Shown here piece after piece: positions 1-15,047 of a stretch of DNA of 34,635 nucleotides. How positions within the stretch are numbered: the first letter of the stretch is position 1; the number at the start of each line of letters is the position of its first letter. The DNA comes from an uncultured bacterium (GTDB taxonomy: Bacteria > Planctomycetota > J058): positions 1 to 34,635 of the forward strand of contig CALDQK010000071.1 in assembly GCA_937911525.1 (NCBI GenBank), given 5' to 3'. The position numbers and the translations under genes are program-made. Under the pieces are notes generated by a model. That model saw only the letters and a program-made list of their open reading frames with translations, had not been told where the DNA came from and did not search any database.

Positions 1-370
1 GGTGACCACCAAGCTGCGCGTGATCAAGCCGCGCTACGTGGAGGTCTCGGCCAACGTCGCGGTCGTGCTCAAGCAGGGCGGCCCCGGCACCGACCGGATC
101 AAGGCGCGCCTCGAGGACGCGATCCGCAAGGCGCTGCACCCGCTCTTCGGCGGCCCCGACGGGAAGGGCTGGCCCTTCGGCCGGGCCGTGCACAAGTCGG
201 ACCTCTACCGGGTCGTCGAGGGCATGGAGGGCGTCGACTACGTCGAGGACCTCGACCTCTACGACGAGGACCTCAAGCGGACGGTGGTCCAGGTGCCCCT
301 CCGTGACGACGAGCTGGTCCACGTGGTCAGCGTCTCGGTCAAGGAGATCACCAAGGAGACGCTCACTTGA
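1..370 (+). CDS. Baseplate assembly protein J-like, C-terminal part (5' truncated by window)
   Basis: The reading frame is open from the window edge, so the GTG at base 2 is probably internal and only the last ~122 residues are visible. These match the C-terminal end of the 'putative baseplate assembly protein' family (TIGR02243-like, J/gp6 wedge) of phage-tail-like and extracellular contractile injection systems: a PRYVEVSANV strand, then a helix, then HPLFGGPDGKGWPFGRAV, then SDLYRVVEG and GVDYVEDL. In related particles this protein builds the wedge of the baseplate around the hub. Its stop overlaps the TTG start of the next gene (TTGA), which indicates one operon with translational coupling. 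The family call is by recognition of the motif order. The upstream half, needed to confirm the full domain set, is not in the window. Confidence 0.82.
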   Translation, partial: VTTKLRVIKPRYVEVSANVAVVLKQGGPGTDRIKARLEDAIRKALHPLFGGPDGKGWPFGRAVHKSDLYRVVEGMEGVDYVEDLDLYDEDLKRTVVQVPLRDDELVHVVSVSVKEITKETLT

Positions 371-1371
371 GCGAGCAAGGCGGAGACAACGGGGACGGGC
401 TCGAGCTCGACGCGCTCCGCCGCCAGAGCGCGCTCGAGACGCTCAAGAAGCAGCTCGCCGCCCGCGAGGTGCCGACGCCGCAGCTGGAGGGATACCCGCT
501 GCAGAAGGCGCGCAAGATCCTCTCGCTGGTGGGCGTGTCCCCCGAGCGGATCCGCCTCCGCCTGACCGAGCACCCGGGCGAGCGCGGGACGGTGATCCGC
601 CAGCGCCCCGCTCCGGGCCGCAAGGTCGACCTGACCGACCCCAACCAGCGCATCGAGCTGCAGGTGGCCGACGCCTCGCTGATGCACATGCTCCCCCAGA
701 TCTATCAGCGCAGCGACCTGACCGGCCGCAACTTCGTGCGCGAGTTGATGTGGGTCATGCAGCACGTCCAGTTCCAGACGGACGAGAAGCTGGACAACCT
801 CGAGCGCTACTTCGATCCGCACGAGTGCCCGCGCGAGTTCCTCGACTACCTGGCGAGCTGGGTCGCGCTGACCATGGACGCCGGCTGGCCCGAGGCCAAG
901 AAGCGCAGCCTGATCAAGAAGGCGGTCGAGCTCTATCACCTGCGCGGCACGCCGCGCGGCCTGCGGATCTACCTGCGGATCTTCACTGGTGTCGATCCGC
1001 TGATCATCGAGAACACCTGGCCCTTCCAGGGCTTCGTCGTCGGCGAGAGCTGCACGGTCGGCGTGGACAGCGTGATCACGCACCGGGTCAACCCGGCCCA
1101 CGCTTTCGTGGTCAAGATCCCGCTGCCGATCGAAGAAGTAGACAACCAAACCATCCTGCGGATCCACCGGATCATCGAGCAGGAGAAGCCCGTCCACACC
1201 GACTACTACCTGATCTTCGCCGAGCGCGAGGAGGAGGAAGTCGACACCGCCCTGACGGTCGGCGTCAGCTCGACGGTCGGCGTGGACACATGGCTCTCGG
1301 GGGACGACGCCGAAGGCTACTTCGACCCCCTGGCCGGCGATGGCGAGATGGAAGTCTCGTCGGAGTACTAA
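367..1371 (+). CDS. PASTA domain-phage tail protein I fusion (contractile injection system baseplate)
   Basis: 334 residues from a TTG that overlaps the previous stop by four bases. Residues ~37-101 look like one PASTA domain (GYPLQKARKIL at the start, VIRQRPAPGRKVDL in the middle, final strand IELQVA). Residues ~107-265 match phage tail protein I of the TIGR02242 type: LPQIYQR, then LDNLERYFDP, then FLDYLASWVAL, then ELYHLRGTPRGL. The C-terminus carries three TVGV repeats near residues 238-305 and an acidic tail. Tail protein I completes the baseplate wedge next to the J-like protein, which is exactly its neighbour here. PASTA domains are known from peptidoglycan-sensing kinases and PBPs, so the fusion could place a wall-binding module on the baseplate, but that is inference. 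No signal peptide is visible. Confidence 0.85.
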   Translation: MSEQGGDNGDGLELDALRRQSALETLKKQLAAREVPTPQLEGYPLQKARKILSLVGVSPERIRLRLTEHPGERGTVIRQRPAPGRKVDLTDPNQRIELQVADASLMHMLPQIYQRSDLTGRNFVRELMWVMQHVQFQTDEKLDNLERYFDPHECPREFLDYLASWVALTMDAGWPEAKKRSLIKKAVELYHLRGTPRGLRIYLRIFTGVDPLIIENTWPFQGFVVGESCTVGVDSVITHRVNPAHAFVVKIPLPIEEVDNQTILRIHRIIEQEKPVHTDYYLIFAEREEEEVDTALTVGVSSTVGVDTWLSGDDAEGYFDPLAGDGEMEVSSEY

Positions 1372-1382
1372 CGAGGAACTAA

Positions 1383-2999
1383 ATGGCTGACGACGCACGC
1401 CAGGGCTACCTGCGCCTGAACCACTTCCACGGGCTGCGCCTCGAGAGCGAGGACTTCCAGACGGGTGAGCGCTACCACGTCGAGAAGCGCAAGCTCCACA
1501 ACGCCGCCCTGCACGGGCACGGGATCGTGGCCCACTGGCGCGGCGAGCTGAAGGTGATCGGCCGCCGCCGCGGCGACATGTCCATCGACGTCAACGCGGG
1601 CTACGCGATCGACGGCGAAGGCAACGACGTGATCCTGTGGGACCCCAAGATCGTCACGATCGACCCGGGCAAGCAGCTGCCGCAGCTGCCCGGCACGGCC
1701 TACATCGTGCTGAAGTACGTCGAGGACCCGGTCGAGTTCGTCGTCAACAAGGCGAACCCCAAGTTCAAGGGCCACCGGCGCATCTTCGAGACCTGCCGCG
1801 TCGACGTCGACAGCAGCCCGCCCGACCCGCGCGACGGGGTCGAGCTGGCGCGGATCCTCATCACGGCCGACACGATCGAGATCACCGACGCGCGCGACCC
1901 CAACAACCCGGGCCCGGGCGAGATCGACCTCCGCTACCGCGGACACGCCGGCCAGGCCGGCACCGCGGTCGACGTGGACCTGCGCAACAAGATGCAGGAC
2001 CTCTTCGTCGAGCTGCGCAAGATCCTCGGCAACTTCGCGCGCAACGGGATCCACTCGGCCCGTGACATGCGCGCCGCGGCGATGGTCCTCCAGATGCTGC
2101 TCGAGACCAACAACCTCGACTCGCCCCAGGTCGTGAGCGGGATCCGACTCCTGCTCGAGCTCGCCGACGAGATGCGCGTCGACGTCGACCTCAACTTCCC
2201 CGAGCTGAACGGCGTGCGGGAGTGGGAGCAGTGGAAGGAGGTCATCGACGCGCTGACCAGCATGGCGCGCGAGGCCAAGCCCCTGCGCGGCGACCTCGAG
2301 AACCTGCTCAACCGCCTCATCACCGCGGCGGACTCGCTCCGCCTGGCCGCCGACGTCAAGCCGGCTCCCAAGCCCGAGCCCAAGCCCGTCGAGGAGGCCA
2401 AGCCCGAGGCCGCCGAGGAGGAGGAAGAGGAGGAAGAGGAGGAGGAGACTCCAGCGGAGCCGGTCAAGGACCCGGCCGCCAAGGAGCTCACCTGGGACCA
2501 GCTCAAGGAGTCCTCGGTCCTGCCGGACAAGATCTTCATGGACGGCAAGAACTACCACCTCGTCGACCAGATCGCCGTCGGCGACCGCAAGAGCGAGGCG
2601 AGCCACGACTTCCAGATCGTGGGCGCCAAGCAGGACTGGAAGGCCAACCAGACCTTCTCCTACCCCGACGGGGTCAAGGCCACCGCGCGCGGTCGCTCGC
2701 ACGTGGGCGGCACCTCGCAGTGGAACATTCAGAACCTCGCGCCCGGCCGGGACGTGGTGATCGCCAAGCGGATCGACTTCGTCCGCGGCGACATCGTGAC
2801 CCGGATCGAGATCGACGGCTCCTCGGTCGGAGACTGGACGATCGACGGGAGCGACCGCAAGCACCGCTGGCGCAACTGGCTGTTCCGGGTCCCCGGTGAC
2901 TCGATCGGCTCTAACTCCGTCGAGTGCAAGCAGGTGGCGGTCGAGGCCGACCGCGACGTCAACATGTTCGGGCTCTGGTTCTACCAGGCGCAGGAGTAG
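1383..2999 (+). CDS. Tail-associated protein with N-terminal HFHG domain, acidic hinge and beta-rich C-domain
   Basis: 538 residues; ATG preceded by GAGG eight bases upstream and eleven bases after the previous stop, so it is in the same operon. The N-terminus (~8-60) has the pattern LNHFHGLRL, ESEDFQ, Y..EKRKLHN, LHGHGIV that I associate with uncharacterised proteins next to tail protein I in eCIS and phage-like clusters. Residues ~60-330 are mixed alpha/beta and then helical. A Pro-Lys-Glu stretch with a run of ten or more glutamates (~330-365) acts as a flexible hinge. The C-terminal ~170 residues look beta-rich (VTRIEIDGSSVGDW, then WRNWLFRVPGD), as in jelly-roll accessory or lectin-like domains. 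Position and modularity suggest a baseplate accessory or receptor-binding fibre. The function is not established. Confidence 0.75.
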   Translation: MADDARQGYLRLNHFHGLRLESEDFQTGERYHVEKRKLHNAALHGHGIVAHWRGELKVIGRRRGDMSIDVNAGYAIDGEGNDVILWDPKIVTIDPGKQLPQLPGTAYIVLKYVEDPVEFVVNKANPKFKGHRRIFETCRVDVDSSPPDPRDGVELARILITADTIEITDARDPNNPGPGEIDLRYRGHAGQAGTAVDVDLRNKMQDLFVELRKILGNFARNGIHSARDMRAAAMVLQMLLETNNLDSPQVVSGIRLLLELADEMRVDVDLNFPELNGVREWEQWKEVIDALTSMAREAKPLRGDLENLLNRLITAADSLRLAADVKPAPKPEPKPVEEAKPEAAEEEEEEEEEEETPAEPVKDPAAKELTWDQLKESSVLPDKIFMDGKNYHLVDQIAVGDRKSEASHDFQIVGAKQDWKANQTFSYPDGVKATARGRSHVGGTSQWNIQNLAPGRDVVIAKRIDFVRGDIVTRIEIDGSSVGDWTIDGSDRKHRWRNWLFRVPGDSIGSNSVECKQVAVEADRDVNMFGLWFYQAQE

Positions 3000-3013
3000 C
3001 GCAAGCCCTTGCG
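3000..3013 (+). terminator. Short hairpin just after the tail gene stop
   Basis: CGCAA-GCCC-TTGCG forms a perfect five-base stem directly behind the TAG of the tail-associated gene. There is no U-tract, so it is at best a weak terminator or 3' end stabiliser. The remaining ~180 bases up to the FHA gene show no clear promoter by eye. Confidence 0.25.
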
Positions 3014-3194
3014 TCGTTGAGGCCTACGGGCCATAGTGGGCCGCGGCATGCGCCCTAAGTGCTTTGGGTTCACGCCGTAGGGATCTGGAACTCGAGTCCT
3101 CGACTTAGGTAGGGGCTCAGGACGAAACTGAGCTCACGCGAGCGAGGCAGTTGGGGAGCCTCCCGAGGACCCCACTGGAGACTGGGAAGTCAGC

Positions 3195-3791
3195 ATGGGC
3201 GATACGAAGCTGTGCAAGAACGGGCACATCATGGAGGCCAACTGGGACACCTGTCCCTACTGCCCCCGGCCCGCTGGCGCTCCTATGGCGCCGCCTCCCA
3301 TGGCCGCGCCGCCTGCGGCGGGTCGACCCCAGATCCCCCCGACCCGCATGGCCGTCCCCGTCCCGGCGCCGGCGCCGGCCCCAGCGCCAGCTCCGATGCC
3401 CATGCCGACCCCCGTGCCGGCAGCGCGTCCCTCGGCGAACGCCAAGAAGACCCGCCTGGTCTTCGAGGACAAGAAGCTGCCCGTCGCCGGCTGGCTGGTC
3501 GCTCTGACCGGCAAGTACAAGGGCGAAGACTTCAAGATCCGCGAGGGCAAGACCTCGATCGGGTCCGATCCGAGCAACGACGTGGTCCTGACCGAGGACT
3601 ACATCTCGACCCGCCACGCCACGATCAAGTTCGTGGAGAAGGACGGCGAGCGGATCTTCATCCTCACCGACCTCGACTCGAGCAACGGCACCTTCCTCAA
3701 CGACAGCGAGGAGCCGATCGCCCGCGAGGAGCTGGTCGACAACGACACGGTGACCTTCGGCTCGACCCGCATGAAGTTCAAGTGCCTCTAG
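3195..3791 (+). CDS. Zinc-ribbon FHA domain protein, copy 1
   Basis: 198 residues. The start has a short metal-binding-like knuckle: C7, H11, C20 and C23 in the pattern C-KNGH...DTCPYC. A Pro/Ala/Met linker follows (~28-92). The C-terminal half (~97-198) is a forkhead-associated domain, which normally binds phosphothreonine peptides: IGSDPSND, STRH (~138-141), then SSNGTFLND (~162-170). The usual FHA 'GR' is GS here, so the arginine that commonly contacts phosphate is absent, although the serine and histidine of the second motif remain. It lies 195 bases after the tail genes and upstream of a second FHA gene, a PP2C phosphatase and a Ser/Thr kinase on the same strand, so it is a plausible reader of that kinase's phosphorylation. 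A GGGAAG about seven bases upstream may serve as ribosome site. Confidence 0.9.
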   Translation: MGDTKLCKNGHIMEANWDTCPYCPRPAGAPMAPPPMAAPPAAGRPQIPPTRMAVPVPAPAPAPAPAPMPMPTPVPAARPSANAKKTRLVFEDKKLPVAGWLVALTGKYKGEDFKIREGKTSIGSDPSNDVVLTEDYISTRHATIKFVEKDGERIFILTDLDSSNGTFLNDSEEPIAREELVDNDTVTFGSTRMKFKCL

Positions 3792-4306
3792 CGGCCGCGG
3801 ACTGGCCCTCCTAGCCGCACATTCCAAGAGAGCAGATCAAGATGAACCGAGAGATCCCCCCCACCCGCATGAACGTCCCCGTCCCGCCGCCGACCCCGGC
3901 GCCGGCGCCGATGCCCATGCCGACGCCCGTTCCGGCGCCGCGTCCCTCCGCGAACGCCAAGAAGACCCGCATGATCTTCGAGGACGCCAAGCTGCCGGTC
4001 GCCGGCTGGCTGGTCGCCCTCACCGGCAAGTACAAGGGCGAGGACTTCAAGATCCGCGAGGGCAAGACCTCGATCGGGTCCGATCCGAGCAACGACGTGG
4101 TCCTGACCGAGGACTACATCTCGACCCGCCACGCCACGATCAAGTTCGTGGAGAAGGACGGCGAGCGGATCTTCATCCTCACCGACCTCGACTCGAGCAA
4201 CGGCACCTTCCTCAACGACAGCGAGGAGCCGATCGCCCGCGAGGAGCTGGTCGACAACGACACGGTCACCTTTGGGCAGACCCGCATGAAGTTCAAGTGC
4301 CTCTAG
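3331..4306 (+). repeat. Tandem duplication of the FHA module, ~515-521 bp period
   Basis: Bases 3331-3791 and 3852-4306 are two copies of the linker plus FHA segment. By direct reading, 3528-3751 is identical to 4043-4266 (224 bases, offset 515). At the 5' edge the offset is 521, showing a six-base length difference in the Pro/Ala linker. Synonymous changes occur just outside the identical block. The pattern fits a duplication homogenised by gene conversion, or a recent duplication. Confidence 0.9.
3842..4306 (+). CDS. FHA domain protein, copy 2 (short paralogue without zinc ribbon)
   Basis: 154 residues. It is a tandem duplicate of the preceding gene, beginning inside the linker: the same IPPTRM start, a Pro/Ala linker and a nearly identical FHA domain (IGSDPSND ~76-84, STRH ~94-97, NGT ~120-122). 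Residue changes in the FHA domain are very few, the clearest being near the end, where FGSTRMKF becomes FGQTRMKF. The zinc-ribbon N-terminus is missing, so this copy keeps only the reader domain and the same GS in place of GR. The ATG has only a weak purine-rich stretch upstream (AAGAGAGCAGA), and 50 bases separate it from copy 1, so coupled translation is likely. It may compete with, or dimerise with, copy 1; this is inference. Confidence 0.88.
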   Translation: MNREIPPTRMNVPVPPPTPAPAPMPMPTPVPAPRPSANAKKTRMIFEDAKLPVAGWLVALTGKYKGEDFKIREGKTSIGSDPSNDVVLTEDYISTRHATIKFVEKDGERIFILTDLDSSNGTFLNDSEEPIAREELVDNDTVTFGQTRMKFKCL

Positions 4307-4385
4307 CCCGAGGCTCCAGGTGACCCCAAGGGAGCCTGACTCCCGAGGCGCTCTGCCTAGCCCCCGACTCGCTTCTACTCTCCTT

Positions 4386-4435
4386 GCGCCTCTCGAGGCG
4401 CATCGCCCCTTCGTTGGGCCCTCCGCTGAGGGCCC
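4386..4435 (+). other. Two consecutive perfect hairpins in the FHA2-PP2C gap
   Basis: The 150-base gap holds GCGCCTC-TC-GAGGCGC (4386-4401) and GGGCCCTC-CGCT-GAGGGCCC (4416-4435). Neither is followed by a U-tract. They lie 20-70 bases before the PP2C start, so they could attenuate or process the transcript between the FHA pair and the phosphatase-kinase pair. The function is not shown. Confidence 0.5.
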
Positions 4436-4456
4436 CCAGATGGACCGACGACCTGC

Positions 4457-5749
4457 GTGAAGATTCGCGACGACGTCGAGATCGGACAGCACTCCCACGT
4501 GGGCATGGCCCGCACGGAGAACCAGGACTTCTTCGGCTACTGGGAGCCGGACGAAGATCGCCTGTTCGACCTCAAGGGTCGCCTGGCCGTCGTCTGCGAC
4601 GGAATGGGCGGCCACTCGGGTGGCGAGATCGCCAGCCGCCTCGCCGTAAAGGCGATCATCGACAACTACGAGCAGGCTGAGAGCGAGAACATCGTCGAGG
4701 CCCTGCGGGCCTCGATCGAGCTCGCCAACCGCCAGGTCTACAACGAGGGCCAGCGGCTCAAAGAGCTGGACGGCATGGGGACCACGGTCACGGCCCTCGT
4801 GCACCGCCGCGACATGGTCTATTTCGGCCAGGTCGGAGACAGCCGCGCCTACCTGATTCGAGGTGGCGCGATGAAGCAAATGACCAAGGACCACTCGCTG
4901 GTTCAGCAGCTCGTCGACGAGGGGCTGCTCGACAAGAGCGAGATGGAGAGCCACCCCGACAAGAACGTGATCCTGCGCTCGCTGGGGGTCAAGCCCGAGG
5001 TCGAGGTCGACGTCAGTCACATCCCGATCGCCAACGGCGACCTGTTCCTGATCTGCTCGGACGGGCTCTCGGGCCTCGTGACCGACGACGAAATGCTGGC
5101 CCTCGTCAACGCGGGCGTGTCTGGCCAAAAGGCCCTGCGCCAGATCTGCGAGGACCTGGTCAACCAGGCCAACGCCGCCGGCGGCCACGACAACATCACG
5201 GTCCAGCTGCTGCGGATCAACGCGACCGACAGCGCGACGACCGACACCACCCCCGAAGAGACCGTCACCGCGGCCTTCACGCAGGACCAGATCGACGAGT
5301 CGATCCGCAAGGCCCGTGAAGAAGCCGCCGCCCGCGACGGAGGCGCGCCGGCAGCGGCCGCCGCCCCGGCGCCAGCCGCGAGCGAGGGTCCGGTGATCCC
5401 GGCGACCCAGCCCGCGATGCCGGTTCCTCAGCTCGAGGAGCCGGCCAGCGCCTCGCGCTCTGCGGGAGGCCTGGGCAAGCTCCTGGTCGGGCTCTTGCTC
5501 GGCGCCGTGATCGGCGCCGGCGGGACCTTCGCGGTCCTCTTCGCCCGCGAGCGGGGCGCGGCCGAGGCCGCCCGGGATCAGGCCAAGGAGACCCTCGACG
5601 CGAGCAAGGGCAACGCGGTCCTGATCGACAAAGCCAAGGACGCCTTCGAGCAAGGAAAGGCGGCCTACCGAGAGAACGACTTCGAGGAGGCGCGAGCTCG
5701 GTTCATCGCCGCCGAGCGCCTCTGTGAACTGGCGGGAGAGGCCCAATGA
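4457..5749 (+). CDS. Membrane-anchored PP2C-family Ser/Thr protein phosphatase
   Basis: 430 residues from a GTG start; later starts would cut the first motif. Residues ~1-250 are a bacterial PP2C (PPM) phosphatase that removes phosphate from Ser/Thr using two metal ions: RTENQD (D24), VVCDGMGGHSGGE (D48), VGDSRAYL (~125), LICSDGLSGLV (~200) and GGHDNITV (~240). A Pro/Ala linker leads to one membrane helix (~338-363, LLVGLLLGAVIGAGG). A ~65-residue helical tail with TPR-like character lies on the far side of the membrane, so the catalytic domain should be cytoplasmic. The stop overlaps the kinase start (ATGA), so the opposing enzymes are made together. This pairing is the standard way of setting reversible phosphorylation of FHA-bound targets; the targets here are probably among the neighbouring FHA or baseplate proteins (inference). 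Confidence 0.93.
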   Translation: MKIRDDVEIGQHSHVGMARTENQDFFGYWEPDEDRLFDLKGRLAVVCDGMGGHSGGEIASRLAVKAIIDNYEQAESENIVEALRASIELANRQVYNEGQRLKELDGMGTTVTALVHRRDMVYFGQVGDSRAYLIRGGAMKQMTKDHSLVQQLVDEGLLDKSEMESHPDKNVILRSLGVKPEVEVDVSHIPIANGDLFLICSDGLSGLVTDDEMLALVNAGVSGQKALRQICEDLVNQANAAGGHDNITVQLLRINATDSATTDTTPEETVTAAFTQDQIDESIRKAREEAAARDGGAPAAAAAPAPAASEGPVIPATQPAMPVPQLEEPASASRSAGGLGKLLVGLLLGAVIGAGGTFAVLFARERGAAEAARDQAKETLDASKGNAVLIDKAKDAFEQGKAAYRENDFEEARARFIAAERLCELAGEAQ

Positions 5750-7407
5750 TCGGGGCGCAAGTCGGTGACTACAAGATCGTCGCCGAGCTCGGCGAGGGCG
5801 GCATGGGCATGGTCTACAAGGGCCAGCACGCCGCGCTGGGGCAGATCGTAGCGGTCAAGTCGCTCCACCCGACCCTGATGAGCAACCAGGCCGCGAAGGA
5901 CCGCTTCGAGCGGGAAGCGCAGGCCCTGGCGCGCCTCAACCACCCCAACATCATTGGCCTGTTGAACTTCATCAACAACGCCGACGGCTGCTTCATCGTG
6001 ATGGAGTTCGCCGAGGGTGAGGACCTCGAGGACAAGCTGCAGCGCATGGGCCTGATCCCCCCGCCGCAGTGCATCCCCTGGTTCATCGAGGCCTGCCGCG
6101 GGCTCGAGTACGCCCACCAGCAGGGGATCATTCACCGCGACATCAAGCCCAGCAACATCATCGTCCACCCCTCGGGCACGACCAAGCTGCTCGACTTCGG
6201 CACGGCCAAGCTCGTCGACGCCCAGCGCCTGACCCAGCAGGGCATGACCCTGGGCACGGTGATCTACATGTCGAAGGAGCAGCTCCTCGGCAAGCCGCTG
6301 GACGCCCGCTCCGACGTCTACAGCCTGGGCGTGACCCTCTACGAGTGCGTCACCGGCCAGCTGCCCTTCTACGACGAAGAGGAGCGCAAGCTCGTCGTCA
6401 AGATCGCCAAGGAAGAGCCGATCCCCCCGCGGCAACACTACCCCGGGATCTCGCCTCAGCTCGAGGCGATCATCCTCAAGGCGATGGCCAAGGACCCGGC
6501 CCAGCGCTACCAGAGCAGCACCGAGTTCGAGCACGCCCTGGCGGGCCTCCCCGAGGCCGGTGGCTCGCTGGCCGCCAGCCAGGCCAGCCCCCTCGCCGCC
6601 ACTCCCCCGCCGACCGCGAGCGCGGGCCCCGCGACGCCCTCTCCCACGCCGACGCCTGCCACCCCGCAGCCCGCCTTCGGCGGCGGCTCCCCGGCCCCCG
6701 CGGCGGGCGGAGGAGGCGCCCCGTCGTTCACCGAGATCCTCTTCTCGCCCCTCTTCCTGGGCGGCCTGGTGTGCTGCGTGATCGGCCTCGGCGCGGGCGT
6801 GCCCCTCGTCGCGATCGGCTTCATGAACGAGCAGTCCACGCTCAAGATCGTGGGCCTGATCTTGCTGCCCGTGTTCCTGCTCCTCGGCGTGTTGCTCTGC
6901 GTGCTCGGGATGGTCAAGGCCAAGGCAGCGGGCGGGAAGGGCGGCGGAGGCGGCGCGGTCGCCGCGCCGCCGGCGATGCCGGCCTCGGTCACCTCGACCG
7001 TCCCCCAGAACAACCCCTTCGGCGCTCAGCCGGCGGGCGGCACCCTCAACGTCGACTCGCCAGGCGCCGCCCAGCACTACGCTCCGCCGCCCGCGACGGC
7101 CCAGCCCGCCGCGGCGGGCCAGGCGCTGGTCCAGGTGATCGACGGCAATGACAAGGGCCTCCAGGCCACGGTGACCGCGACCACCCCGGTGACCCTCGGT
7201 CGCGCGCCGGCCTGCTCGATCACGCTCAACGACCCGGGCGTCTCGGGTCAGCACGCCTCGATCGGCTTCGAGGCCTCGACCCTGGTCGTGACCGACACCG
7301 GCAGCCGCAACGGTGTGTTCGTGAACAACCAGAAGATCGCGCGCCAGCAGCTCTCCTCGGGCGACCTGATCGTGGTCGGCTCGACACGCCTGCTGGTCAG
7401 CCTCTAG
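5746..7407 (+). CDS. Ser/Thr protein kinase with two membrane helices and C-terminal FHA domain
   Basis: 553 residues. Hanks-type kinase domain (~8-265): glycine loop GEGGMG (16-21), lysine K38 in VAVK, HRDIKPSN (130-137), DFG (150-152). The usual APE reads SKE (YMSKEQ), keeping the glutamate but not the Ala-Pro. A Pro/Ala linker (~268-330) precedes two predicted membrane helices (~336-358 and ~366-390) that would form a hairpin. After another linker comes an FHA domain (~460-553) with intact LGRAPAC, GQHA and SRNGVF motifs, unlike the two small FHA proteins upstream. Kinase and FHA domain should face the cytoplasm on the same side. The ATGA overlap with the PP2C gene couples expression. Together with the phosphatase and FHA genes it forms a complete phospho-switch directly behind injection-system genes. 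Confidence 0.94.
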   Translation: MIGAQVGDYKIVAELGEGGMGMVYKGQHAALGQIVAVKSLHPTLMSNQAAKDRFEREAQALARLNHPNIIGLLNFINNADGCFIVMEFAEGEDLEDKLQRMGLIPPPQCIPWFIEACRGLEYAHQQGIIHRDIKPSNIIVHPSGTTKLLDFGTAKLVDAQRLTQQGMTLGTVIYMSKEQLLGKPLDARSDVYSLGVTLYECVTGQLPFYDEEERKLVVKIAKEEPIPPRQHYPGISPQLEAIILKAMAKDPAQRYQSSTEFEHALAGLPEAGGSLAASQASPLAATPPPTASAGPATPSPTPTPATPQPAFGGGSPAPAAGGGGAPSFTEILFSPLFLGGLVCCVIGLGAGVPLVAIGFMNEQSTLKIVGLILLPVFLLLGVLLCVLGMVKAKAAGGKGGGGGAVAAPPAMPASVTSTVPQNNPFGAQPAGGTLNVDSPGAAQHYAPPPATAQPAAAGQALVQVIDGNDKGLQATVTATTPVTLGRAPACSITLNDPGVSGQHASIGFEASTLVVTDTGSRNGVFVNNQKIARQQLSSGDLIVVGSTRLLVSL

Positions 7408-11098: not shown

Positions 11099-12232
11099 TC
11101 AGGCCGCCGCGGGGCCGTAGAGCTCGGCCTCGGCGGCCAGCGCTTCGCCGCGGCTGGTCTCGGCAGCGACGAAGTCCCGCCGCTCGTGCCCGGGTCGGCT
11201 GAGGGCGGCGTAGCCGTTGAAGAGCCCGTTCAGGAGGGCCCTCAGCCGCGCGGGGCCGGGCGCCATGTGGAAGCCGACGCGCTCGGAGGTCTGAATCACC
11301 TTGCGCGCCAGGGAGCCGCCGAACTCGAGCGAGTCGATCCCCAGCACGGCCAGGTCCTGCTCGACCTGGACCAGGATCGGCAGCGCAGGGAGGAGCAGGC
11401 TCAGCCTCCTCAGCCGCCGGGCGGGGCTCCAGCGCTGCCAGGGCGTGAGCGGGAACTCGCGCAGGTAGCTCTGCGGGAGCGCGGCGTGGCGCGACTCGTC
11501 CAGGTGGAACAGGCGCAGGATCTCCAGCCCCGGCAGCTCCCCCAGGGCCCCGAACAAGCTGAGCGCGAAGCCCTCCACCAGCACGTTCATCGCGAAGAAC
11601 TTCTCCAGGCCCTTCGACTTGAAGGCCCGCTCCAGCAGGAGGTATTCCCAAGCCGAGAGGCGCGGGACGGGGCACTCGAAGGCCTGGATCAGCTCGCGCA
11701 ATACGACGAAGTGCTTGGCCTCCTCGAAGACCTGCATCGTGAGCGCTGCCCGCCCGCCCGTGCTCTGGACCTCGTTCAGCAGCTCGGCCGAGACCAGCCA
11801 GGCGTAGGCCTCGCCGTGGCCGATCATGGAGAGCACGTTCACCAGCGCCTGCTTCTCGCGCGGGGTGTAGCTGCGCTCGAGCAGGGCCTTGAACTCGGCG
11901 CCCCCGATCCGCTCGCGCTCGACGCGCTCCTGGGCGCTGAGCCCGCGCTCGGCGCTCTCGCTGAGCGTGCGCTCCAGCGCGCTCGCGTCACGGAAGCTGG
12001 ACCAGGAGGCGTGCGTCTCCGCCTTCCAGAGCAAGCGCAGGCTCTTGTCGTAGTGCCGCTTGCGAAGCCGCTCCTGCTCGCCCCCCAAGAACTCGTAGCT
12101 CAGGTCGTCGTAGGGGGCCTTGCGTCCGCGCAGACCCAGGCGCTCCTTCAGCCGGTCGAAGGCCCGCAGGCCCCGGTCGAAGGGGCGCTCGAGCCGGTCG
12201 TGCAGGCGCGGGGGGATCGCTTCGCTCGTCAT
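11099..12232 (-). CDS. Ferritin-like di-iron carboxylate protein
   Basis: 377 residues; ATG at 12232 preceded by AGGAG seven bases upstream. All four helix motifs of a di-iron carboxylate bundle are present in order and with normal spacing: E141 (GHGEAYAW), E171-A-K-H174 (FEEAKHF), E220 (VLVEGFAL) and E246-S-R-H249 (DESRHA). This supports two bound metals and oxygen chemistry such as oxidase, hydroxylase or N-oxygenase activity, as in R2-like oxidases or AurF-type enzymes; the substrate cannot be told. The ~100 N-terminal residues are basic and helical. There is no signal peptide, so it is cytoplasmic, though a hydrophobic stretch near residue 280 (LSLLLPALPILV) could contact membrane. The gene leads a two-gene operon with the DUF445 membrane protein. 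Confidence 0.88.
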   Translation of the reverse strand: MTSEAIPPRLHDRLERPFDRGLRAFDRLKERLGLRGRKAPYDDLSYEFLGGEQERLRKRHYDKSLRLLWKAETHASWSSFRDASALERTLSESAERGLSAQERVERERIGGAEFKALLERSYTPREKQALVNVLSMIGHGEAYAWLVSAELLNEVQSTGGRAALTMQVFEEAKHFVVLRELIQAFECPVPRLSAWEYLLLERAFKSKGLEKFFAMNVLVEGFALSLFGALGELPGLEILRLFHLDESRHAALPQSYLREFPLTPWQRWSPARRLRRLSLLLPALPILVQVEQDLAVLGIDSLEFGGSLARKVIQTSERVGFHMAPGPARLRALLNGLFNGYAALSRPGHERRDFVAAETSRGEALAAEAELYGPAAA

Positions 12233-12757
12233 GGGTTTGCTCCTGGAGATGAAGCGGCAGCAACTGGGGGGCCGAGCTGCAACCCACGCCTGCGACGCGC
12301 GACTTCCTCCCGTCTTGGCGCTCCGTCACGCGCGCTCACCGAGTTGTCATGGGGAGGCGACAGTCAGCGCGCGCGGCGCTCGACGAGCTCTCGCGCGCTC
12401 CCCTGGCGAGGGCTGCCTCGCCCGCCAGCGCGCGGCCTTCGCCTTCGCCGTGGCGGAACGCAGGCTCGGGTCCGTGGCGAGCGCCGTCGTCAGGACCTGC
12501 TCATCGGGGCAGCAGGCCGAGAGCACGCTGGGTCCCACCCATGGCAGGGCCTGCCTGGCGAGCTCCTGGACGAGGCTCGTCGCCCGCTGGCTGCGCAGCA
12601 CTGAGCGAGGGCCGCTCGAGCGCCTCCTGTCACCCGGGCTGAACGGCCTGTCGCAGGCTTTGGACGGTGGGACCGACGGCGCCCTGCGCGCACGGTCCTC
12701 GTTGGGCTTATCCCCGGCACCCCCTGTGCCTGGCCATGGGCAACAAAGGAGGAGTCC
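12233..12757. other. 525-base divergent intergenic region
   Basis: It separates the di-iron operon (-) from the PrcB/CBM20 gene (+), so promoters for both should be here. I find no open frame with a convincing ribosome site. A - strand frame ending at 12347 reads protein-like near its end (SLVQELARQALPWVG) but has no clear start and overlaps the + strand gene upstream. No strong hairpin or sigma-70 pair stands out. The + strand gene's ribosome site (AAAGGAGG) is at its right edge. Confidence 0.5.
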
Positions 12758-14953
12758 ATGAGACTCGACGTCCAAAGAAGCGCGGCGGTGGTCGCATTGA
12801 TCTTGGCGCTGGCGCCTGGAGCCGACGCCTATCCCGTCCCCTTCACCGAGCTCTCCAGCGGAACGCAGGCGCCCGCCGCGCTGCCGTCCGGGGCCTACGT
12901 CCTGCGCTCCCAGGCAGACCTGGGCCGCTATGGCCTGGAGGCCCTCGTCCCGCCCGGACGGATCGACTGGAGCCAGGAGTTGATGGTGGCGTTGGCGAGC
13001 GACACCAAGCCGACCCATGGCTACTCGATCGAGGTCGCGTCAGCCCGGCGCACGTCCTACCAGGGGCGCCCGGTGATCCTGGTCCGCTACGGGGAGGTCG
13101 CGCCCCAGCCGGGGGTGCCGCTGGCAGCGGCGCAGACCCGCCCCTATCAGCTCGTCAAGCTCCGTCGCGGGGGCGAGCTCGTCCTCGAGCCGGTCGATCC
13201 GGCCGGCACCTCGCCGCAGCCCAGCCCCGCCCCCGCGCCTGCCCCGCCGGGCGACGGCTCGCTCCCCTTCAGCATCCTCGCCAGCGGACCGCAGGCCGAC
13301 GCGACCTTGCCCGCGGGGACCTCGGTGGTCCACTCCCTGGCGGACCTGCGCCGCTACGGGATCCAGCCGAGCGGGATCTGGACCCAGATCGACTGGGACG
13401 ATGAGATGGCTCTGATCCTCGTGGGCGACACCAAGCGGACCCTGGGCCACTCGATCGGCGTGGAGTCGATCAAGCTCGAGGTCGAGACGCCGCCCACCGG
13501 AGCCGCCGGGGTCCGGATCGTGGCCGTGGTCCGTTACCGCGAGCGCGCCCCGCGCCCCGGGACGATCCTCGCTCCGGCCCTGAGTCGGCCCTACCAGGTC
13601 GTCAAGTTGGCCCGGCGCGGCGGCGCGGTCGAGTTCCGCCGTGTGGGAGCCGAGCTGGCGCCAGAGCGCCTGAGCGGGCGCGTGAGCGTGAAGGGCAAGG
13701 AGGTAGCGGTCGGCGGTGAGCGCGTGATCCCCGCGAGCTTTGCGGCCCGGCTCCGCTCCTTGAACGGCTTGATCGTGACCCTGGAGGGGCAGAGCCACGG
13801 ATCGAGCTTCGCGGGCGAGCGCGTCCTCTCGCCGCAGATGCGGCGCGCGGCGGGCACCGTCGCCACGCGGCCGGGCTCCCAGGGGGTCGTCCTGCAGCGG
13901 CGCGGAGCGCCGAACCTGCCGCCCTTGGAGCTGGAGGGTCCGCTGACCAGGCTGCTCCCGGTAGGCGAGGAGATCGGCCTGCGCGGCTGGCTCGACGACC
14001 AGGTCAGCCCTGCGCGGCTGCACGTCGTGGCGCTGCTGGCACGGGCCAAGGGTCACTCGGTCCTCCTGCCCCTGGGCCGGGTCCGCCCCGGTGAGCTGAT
14101 CGAGGTCAGCGCGGGCCGGGCCGGCTTCTGGCAGGTCACGACCCCCCAGGGGAGCAGCGGCTGGATGCGTCGCGAGAACGCCGAGCTGATCTCGCCGCCC
14201 GCGCGAGCGGCCGCGGTCCGGGGCGCCGCCGGCGCGCTGCGGGGGGCCCCTCCGGTCCGCGGAGCCGCCCCCCGCGCGACCGGGTCCGCCAGCACCAGCG
14301 CCGCGGCCAGCGCTGGCGCCACCAGCGCCGCGGCCAGCGCCCCCGCCCTCCCCGCGAGCGGCGCCAAGGGGACGATCGTGCTGCGCGTCTACCGCCAGGC
14401 CTACCAGGACGGCGGCCTGATCAAGCGTCCTTACTCTGGCGTGGGCGTGTTCCTGGACGGCAACTCGCCCCGGGGCGGACCGCCGGCGGACGGGCACACG
14501 AGCGGCGGCGTGGTCAGCTTCGAGCTCGAGGCCGGCCCGCACACCGTCTCCTTCTCCCAGATGACCAGCAGCCACTCGGTGTTCTACAGCCCGACCTTCT
14601 CCTTCACGGTCGAGGCTGGCCAGCGCCGCGAGCAGGAGATCGTGCTCCAGCCGGCCAGCACGAGGATCGTCGCGAACACCGCCACCCGTCCCGGCGAGGC
14701 GCTCTTCGTGACCGGCGCCACCGACCTGCTCGGTAACTGGCGCACCGCCTACCGGCTGACCCCTGGCCCGGACGGCTGGAGCTACACGGGCAAGCTGCCG
14801 CTGGGCCTGCGCTACAAGCTCCTGCGGGGCCCCTGGATCGCGGGCGACACCACCCCGATTCACGGCGGCCTGACCTGGGAGCGTGGCTCCAACCGGGCCG
14901 TTCGGTCCGAGCTCGACTGGCAGCCGAACCGCGTCAGCCCCGCCTTCGACTGA
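12758..14953 (+). CDS. Secreted multidomain protein: two PrcB-like domains, SH3-like segment, CBM20-like domain
   Basis: 731 residues; ATG with AAAGGAGGAG just upstream. A signal peptide covers ~1-24 (VVALILALAPGADA). Two homologous ~120-residue units follow (~28-148 and ~168-300), each with the PrcB C-terminal pattern: SLADL-type strand, ID W..E, T.GHSI or THGYSIEV, VRY.E.AP.PG, then RPYQ.VKL. PrcB is a protease-associated protein of Treponema and this fold is common in secreted proteins. Next come an OB/SH3-like stretch (~440-480, LIEVSAGRAGFWQVT, SSGWMRRENAE), an Ala/Ser-rich linker (~500-540) with a 27-base direct repeat, and an Ig/transthyretin-like domain (~545-640, YSGVGVFLDG). The end (~645-731) has CBM20 starch-binding hallmarks: FVTGATDLLGNW, LPLGLRYKLL and TWERGSNR. 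A role in surface polysaccharide binding is likely. No catalytic domain is seen. Confidence 0.82.
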   Translation: MRLDVQRSAAVVALILALAPGADAYPVPFTELSSGTQAPAALPSGAYVLRSQADLGRYGLEALVPPGRIDWSQELMVALASDTKPTHGYSIEVASARRTSYQGRPVILVRYGEVAPQPGVPLAAAQTRPYQLVKLRRGGELVLEPVDPAGTSPQPSPAPAPAPPGDGSLPFSILASGPQADATLPAGTSVVHSLADLRRYGIQPSGIWTQIDWDDEMALILVGDTKRTLGHSIGVESIKLEVETPPTGAAGVRIVAVVRYRERAPRPGTILAPALSRPYQVVKLARRGGAVEFRRVGAELAPERLSGRVSVKGKEVAVGGERVIPASFAARLRSLNGLIVTLEGQSHGSSFAGERVLSPQMRRAAGTVATRPGSQGVVLQRRGAPNLPPLELEGPLTRLLPVGEEIGLRGWLDDQVSPARLHVVALLARAKGHSVLLPLGRVRPGELIEVSAGRAGFWQVTTPQGSSGWMRRENAELISPPARAAAVRGAAGALRGAPPVRGAAPRATGSASTSAAASAGATSAAASAPALPASGAKGTIVLRVYRQAYQDGGLIKRPYSGVGVFLDGNSPRGGPPADGHTSGGVVSFELEAGPHTVSFSQMTSSHSVFYSPTFSFTVEAGQRREQEIVLQPASTRIVANTATRPGEALFVTGATDLLGNWRTAYRLTPGPDGWSYTGKLPLGLRYKLLRGPWIAGDTTPIHGGLTWERGSNRAVRSELDWQPNRVSPAFD
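14294..14340 (+). repeat. Short in-frame direct repeat in Ala/Ser linker
   Basis: The same twenty bases occur at 14294-14313 and 14321-14340, 27 bases apart and therefore in frame. They encode the linker motif TSAAAS twice. Length variation between strains would be expected here. Confidence 0.7.
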
Positions 14954-15047
14954 AGGGCGAGCCAAGCGTGAGGGACAGGGGTCGGCCGGACGAACGAAGC
15001 GACCCTTCGAACGCTGGCTCGAGCGAAGGAAGGGCCGCCCCCCCAGC

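Follow-up and report, generated by a model that had tools for sequence, protein, structure and literature searches.

Results

The window, that is, the whole stretch of 34,635 nucleotides analysed here, comes from an uncultured planctomycete whose genome assembly (G000) totals 10.2 Mb in 1342 contigs and is 90.36% complete with 6.37% contamination. At 12758..14953 (+) lies a gene (P0001) for a modular protein of 731 amino acids. In the ORF listing it is one uninterrupted frame of 731 codons that begins with ATG, 5 bases downstream of a consensus Shine-Dalgarno sequence read from the DNA (aaggagg, 12746..12752, +). The open frame that holds it (12605-14950) has a G+C content of 0.72/0.59/0.91 at the three codon positions. 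A long antisense ORF (13040-14965, -) overlaps the gene; the domain matches fall on the + strand. We regard the ORF, which an earlier note on this DNA had already picked out, as a credible gene. No promoter-like site was found for it, and two terminator-like sites nearby both lie at its start.

The protein opens with a signal-peptide-like segment (residues 1-24; 12758..12829, +), MRLDVQRSAAVVALILALAPGADA, which is hydrophobic, ends in ADA and is modelled as a helix over residues 6-17. This pattern indicates that the protein is probably exported and cleaved at this site. Such a start would suit the surface scaffold that the earlier note envisaged, but the protein contains no cysteine and therefore no lipobox, and neither Pfam nor NCBIfam recognised an anchor to the surface. 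Nor did they recognise, at E ≤ 1, an enzyme family or catalytic domain, in line with the earlier note.

Two PrcB domains follow (copy 1, 12833..13192, +; copy 2, 13262..13645, +). The earlier note had described double PrcB-like units and the Pfam search bears this out, as PrcB_C (PF14343) matches two stretches (1.7e-12, 47.8 bits, against a gathering cut-off of 24 bits), the first at residues 77-135. Scored singly in a genome search, the copies reached 33.7 and 24 bits, both marked as over the cut-off. The full units, 120 and 128 aa against the 56 positions of the Pfam model, were delimited with a full-domain profile, which copy 1 matches at 2.4e-45 (the profile seed included copy 1). The two copies are 47% identical and are underlain by a DNA-level repeat with a spacing of 426 nt. 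Residues 28-134 match positions 63-165 of 176 in NF033596, the equivalog model for dentilisin PrcB (E 1.5e-5), at 24.9 bits, below its cut-off of 125. A literature search found no published description of PrcB_C or PF14343.

Folded alone with a 32-row alignment, PrcB copy 1 gave a model with pLDDT 96.9. Its best VIA-align match has Z 3.0 (44 of 997 chains at Z ≥ 2, none at Z ≥ 5) and its best Foldseek row E 0.17; among PDB sequences the PrcB part found nothing better than E 0.034. No protease-inhibitor fold stands among the rows listed in the fold searches. Judged from this predicted structure, PrcB would have no solved relative that VIA-align or Foldseek can find, from which neither a new nor an old fold follows.

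Downstream of the PrcB domains the model points to two beta-rich units at about residues 300-424, absent from the earlier note, which we read as OB-like. Domain 1 (residues 300-362; 13655..13843, +; pLDDT about 85-91) has an order of strands and helix compatible with an OB fold, and domain 2 (residues 363-424; 13844..14029, +; pLDDT about 83-93) is aligned in relatives. For domain 1, PF19135 (DUF5818) was matched at E ≤ 0.1 by 4 of the 19 family members scanned, the 731-aa protein not being among them. The next domain (residues 425-480; 14030..14197, +) had been called SH3-like and the fold comparison upholds this. Residues 424-479 of the predicted structure align by VIA-align with SH3 chains at Z 8.1-9.5 (~53 residues, rmsd mostly 1.4-2), though the Pfam SH3_3 match (residues 439-472, E 0.02, 15.5 bits) is under the gathering cut-off of 27. 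A PDB profile search with this region, weak when taken alone, placed an antibody chain first (E 0.0043) and SH3 domains from E 0.013.

An Ala-rich and probably disordered linker (residues 484-533; 14207..14356, +; pLDDT under 50) leads to a beta-sandwich of moderate pLDDT (residues 535-632; 14360..14653, +). This is the Ig-like module of the earlier note, but the best VIA-align matches of residues 533-634 include CnaB-type pilin, teneurin and carboxypeptidase N tail domains (Z 8.8-9.9), which suggests transthyretin-like topology rather than a classical Ig fold. The whole-protein model, made from a 14-row alignment, has a mean pLDDT of 69.2 and pTM of 0.34; it is good for PrcB copy 1, the OB-like units and the SH3 region, moderate for PrcB copy 2 and poor for the linker and the C-terminal domain. 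In Foldseek this model had two rows below E 0.001, and the TM-score of each was ≤ 0.15.

The C-terminal domain (residues 633-715; 14654..14902, +; mostly pLDDT under 50) is of CBM20 type, an assignment that from the sequence is borderline but credible. On the whole protein the Pfam CBM_20 match (residues 639-715, 8.9e-5, 22.7 bits) falls just below the gathering cut-off of 23.3 bits, but the C-terminal part alone scores 23.4 bits and a genome search gave 26.7 bits (3.5e-5). The claim that the final ~85 residues are CBM20-like has the two latter scores and the site residues described below on its side, and the whole-protein score against it. When the last 117 aa were searched against PDB sequences, 23 of the 27 distinct sequences at E ≤ 1 were cyclodextrin glucanotransferases (CGTases), the best being 1cyg (E 9e-4) and the rest lying at 0.12 and weaker.

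Weak as this match is, the CBM20 and CGTase rows (1cyg, 1eo5) have in common the motifs LGNW, YK or FK (the lysine before a loop), TWE and GSN. W661, K687, W707 and N712 of the 731-aa protein sit in these motifs, and their 1eo5 counterparts, counted from the aligned rows, are W616, K651, W662 and N667. We take these residues to correspond to maltose site 1 of CGTase CBM20; a literature search found no source for the CGTase site residue names. The second sugar site of CGTase CBM20 presumably comprises a tyrosine, of which no counterpart was seen in the domain described here. The 731-aa protein further differs from CGTases in having no amylase domain. Compared with most planctomycete copies, the loop before the last strands of its CBM20 is ~8 residues longer, and in a tree with 22 other planctomycete CBM20 domains this CBM20 forms a long branch of unsure place.

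The part of the protein that precedes this tail is not unique and belongs to a planctomycete family. With an alignment of the 731-aa protein and its closest paralog as the query against 58 genomes, 7 were matched at E ≤ 1e-5, six from the same taxonomic family and one from the same order; a single genome of that taxonomic family (G003) was unmatched. All 14 aligned proteins, the 731-aa protein included, have OB-like units and the SH3 region, and 13 of the 14 (all but L051) carry PrcB, in one to three copies. Seven of them (L002, an own-genome paralog on contig C1134, and L043, L045, L046, L047, L048 and L049) resemble the 731-aa protein in a signal-peptide-like start, at least one PrcB, two OB-like units and SH3. 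These differ from it in ending soon after SH3, and several bear another domain, A5, in the position of the second PrcB.

A5 is a domain of ~130 aa found in eight paralogs (L002, L044, L045, L046, L047, L048, L049 and L051), and it follows PrcB in those that have PrcB. Eight A5 domains were scanned against Pfam without a usable match. Its identification as emfourin, a metalloprotease inhibitor, was considered and dropped, as Pfam gave no emfourin match and only two unrelated families at E 0.086 and 0.19, and a PDB profile search reached only E 0.066 and 0.75.

In a tree of 32 PrcB domains, copies from one and the same protein fall together: those of the 731-aa protein (98/97), copies 2 and 3 of L043 (99/96), those of L045 (100/100) and two of L052 (89/69). 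The place of the two L050 copies was not resolved and the deeper tree is weak. Since same-protein copies pair, duplication within the protein (or gene conversion) has probably occurred more than once, as judged from these sequences. The pairing is as expected for an avidity-type expansion, gene conversion being the alternative. L052 (L052:3168-7001, -; contig C198 of G007) is more distant than the aligned proteins; it has 1278 aa and at least three PrcB stretches, which alternate with a unit of ~100 aa; judged by eye this unit is a repeat, and Pfam does not match it. In two other proteins (L054:4693-5754, -, in G006 and L055 in G004) PrcB is followed instead by another C-terminal region, ~190 aa long, which hints at an exchange of the modules behind PrcB.

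PrcB itself extends further than the family. PF14343 was matched at E ≤ 0.01 in 14 of the 58 Planctomycetota genomes (13 over cut-off), including all seven of the taxonomic family. Among 14 control genomes it was matched in four, Thermus, Deinobacterium and two archaea, with three of these over the cut-off. NF033596 was matched at E ≤ 0.1 by 14 of the 19 family members scanned. The family-alignment search gave 10 named relatives; six are Planctomycetota MAGs matched over the whole family, and four are Patescibacteria/Parcubacteria and Archaeoglobales MAGs matched in the PrcB part only. A single-sequence scan of named genomes gave no relatives, and no plasmid match was found.

The CnaB-like and CBM20 tail has a very different distribution from that of the body. 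It is absent in 13 of the 13 other aligned proteins, which have a short end only after the SH3 region, and in Pfam scans of 19 family members CBM_20 was matched in the 731-aa protein alone. Surveyed across 294 Planctomycetota genomes, the tail (14360-14950) was found in its own genome and as one weak stretch in G024 (E 8.4e-4, 27%, with a stop inside). The joining of this tail to a PrcB-OB-SH3 body, as read from sequence, is therefore a combination seen in no relative examined, and the earlier view that the domain order is unusual gains from the wider survey.

CBM20 is by contrast not rare in the lineage. The 58 genomes gave 26 CBM_20 matches in 10 genomes, some with two per protein. Of these 26 matches, 12 lie in frames with an HKD motif of phospholipase-D type, 9 in frames with HDGQN (esterase type) and 3 in frames with neither motif; one is that of the 731-aa protein and one gave no row. 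Among these frames only that of the 731-aa protein has a PrcB match. The tryptophan of LGxW is missing in 9 of the 9 esterase-type copies. As CBM20 is carried mainly by PLD-like and esterase proteins, its use away from amylases appears usual in this lineage, and its joining to PrcB does not.

Two such proteins are encoded in the same genome. One, on contig C1142 (L009:1580-3286, +), combines PLDc_2 with two CBM_20 domains by Pfam, an unusual pairing, and frames with CBM20 and the HKD motif recur in the order. The other, on C194 (L010:2589-4004, +), combines Esterase with CBM_20. Both resemble the 731-aa protein in a signal-like start and in a CBM20 outside a GH13 context, and differ from it by the presence of an enzyme-type domain. 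GH13 has 7 matches in this fragmented assembly, none of them on the three CBM20 contigs, and a role for the 731-aa protein as an amylase accessory is not supported.

No candidate for a partner was recognised among the adjacent genes. Those neighbours that Pfam could name encode kinases, an ECF sigma factor and one protein each with DUF3370 and DUF445; the ORF at 11099-12232 was without a match. A Pfam scan of 20 frames of the window, which represent 19 distinct genes or frames, recognised neither a peptidase nor a glycoside hydrolase. The 10 frames beside relatives included one gamma-glutamyltranspeptidase, one glycosyl hydrolase family 57 protein and four without a Pfam match, and no subtilase or other endopeptidase was recognised among them. 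The family 57 gene adjoins the PrcB-less L051 (L051:3895-4929, +; contig C1288 of G000). When window frames were compared by tblastn with 21 locus stretches (E ≤ 1e-8), no synteny was seen: the frame of the 731-aa protein itself hit 6 loci, and the other 8 query-locus pairs fell on two loci, where three of the queries are kinase genes by Pfam and the fourth hit the stretches that the kinases hit.

Discussion

We propose that the 731-aa protein is a secreted, non-catalytic adaptor in which PrcB docks a protein and CBM20 tethers it to alpha-glucan, a reading to which we give somewhat less than an even chance. The signal peptide would export the protein, and the two tandem PrcB domains would be the heads that dock a protein. 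The family's conserved body would consist of the two OB-like units and the SH3-fold domain, and behind it the flexible Ala-rich linker would carry the CnaB-like spacer and CBM20. The latter may hold the protein to an alpha-1,4-glucan, such as starch, glycogen or a maltodextrin-bearing surface. We infer the adaptor role, the export, the docking and the glucan binding alike from sequence and homology.

The docking function is suggested by distant homology to PrcB of Treponema denticola, which interacts with the subtilase PrtP. Published work places T. denticola PrcB, a lipoprotein, in the dentilisin complex of the outer membrane and finds it necessary for PrtP expression (PMC8167434). The same paper states that PrcB has no homologs outside oral Treponema (PMC8167434); contrary to that statement, distant homologs by sequence are found here. 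The domain is homologous to that of dentilisin PrcB and probably extracytoplasmic as well, but there are differences: (i) the 731-aa protein has two PrcB copies and dentilisin one; (ii) it lacks the lipobox cysteine and no prcA-prtP operon was seen; (iii) it adds OB-like, SH3, CnaB-like and CBM20 modules. Identity with the dentilisin PrcB equivalog is ruled out. A dentilisin-like operon was rejected too, as Pfam recognised no S8 peptidase in the 20 scanned frames of the window and the S8 matches of the genome lie on five other contigs.

The tethering function is suggested by the conserved residues of the CBM20. The tail may well not bind glucan, given that its CBM20 is divergent and, in the family, was found in the 731-aa protein only. 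The CBM20-type domain could instead be a beta-sandwich spacer that secreted proteins of this lineage have taken up repeatedly and that binds no glucan here, the function lying in the PrcB-OB-SH3 body as it does in the relatives; we consider this a less probable but serious alternative. It would fit the occurrence of CBM20 in this lineage mainly on PLD-like and esterase proteins, the lack of the LGxW site tryptophan in every esterase-type copy, and the absence of the tail from the 13 other aligned relatives, which implies that the tail is dispensable to the family. Unlike the esterase-type copies, the 731-aa protein retains W661, K687, W707 and N712, which argues for the tethering reading.

PrcB might also regulate a secreted protease, for example by chaperoning or inhibiting a subtilase whose gene lies in another part of the genome. 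A non-polar prcB deletion in T. denticola reportedly leaves prtP transcribed and the PrtP protein undetected (PMC8167434), and the planctomycete genome has 5 matches to S8 peptidase, one of them a short stretch, on five other contigs. One relative does adjoin a peptidase gene, that for gamma-glutamyltranspeptidase, which is not an endopeptidase. Against this stand the equivalog score of 24.9 against 125 and the fact that no subtilase was recognised in the scanned frames beside the gene and its relatives. The PrcB fold searches, which gave no informative match, recognised no inhibitor fold either. We consider such regulation rather unlikely, and the protease partner suggested in the earlier note finds no backing at this locus.

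We consider it highly improbable that the architecture came about by accident, through wrong joining of a contig or through a recent fusion that is confined to a single genome and has a functionless tail: the assembly is fragmented and partly contaminated and the tail, apart from one weak match, is confined to one genome, but the frame is uninterrupted, the tail is joined through the Ala-rich linker outside the recognised domains, and G+C shows no jump at the junction in 2-kb steps.

Returning to the proposed adaptor, what is new at the level of sequence is the joining of known modules, PrcB-OB-SH3 with CnaB-like and CBM20. The protein offers a concrete case for a PrcB role outside oral treponemes, and its CBM20, if it binds glucan, would extend the uses of starch-binding modules beyond enzymes. 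A broader speculation, which we think improbable as a whole, is that PrcB is a widespread extracytoplasmic dock of unsolved fold, which planctomycetes multiply and whose C-terminal targeting modules they swap. The 731-aa protein would then be a dock tied to alpha-glucan, gathering a secreted partner (a protease or something else) on particles of storage polysaccharide, akin to cellulosome targeting without enzyme domains on the scaffold.

Two further gene groups lie in the window. At 307-7404 a Tail_P2_I gene (phage tail protein I) occurs with FHA proteins, a PP2C phosphatase and a Ser/Thr kinase with FHA, which has the look of a phage-tail-like or contractile-injection cluster that is controlled by phospho-signalling. 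At 24341-31624 genes for a fasciclin-domain protein, an amine oxidase-type flavoprotein, an amidohydrolase and an RPE65-type protein are grouped.
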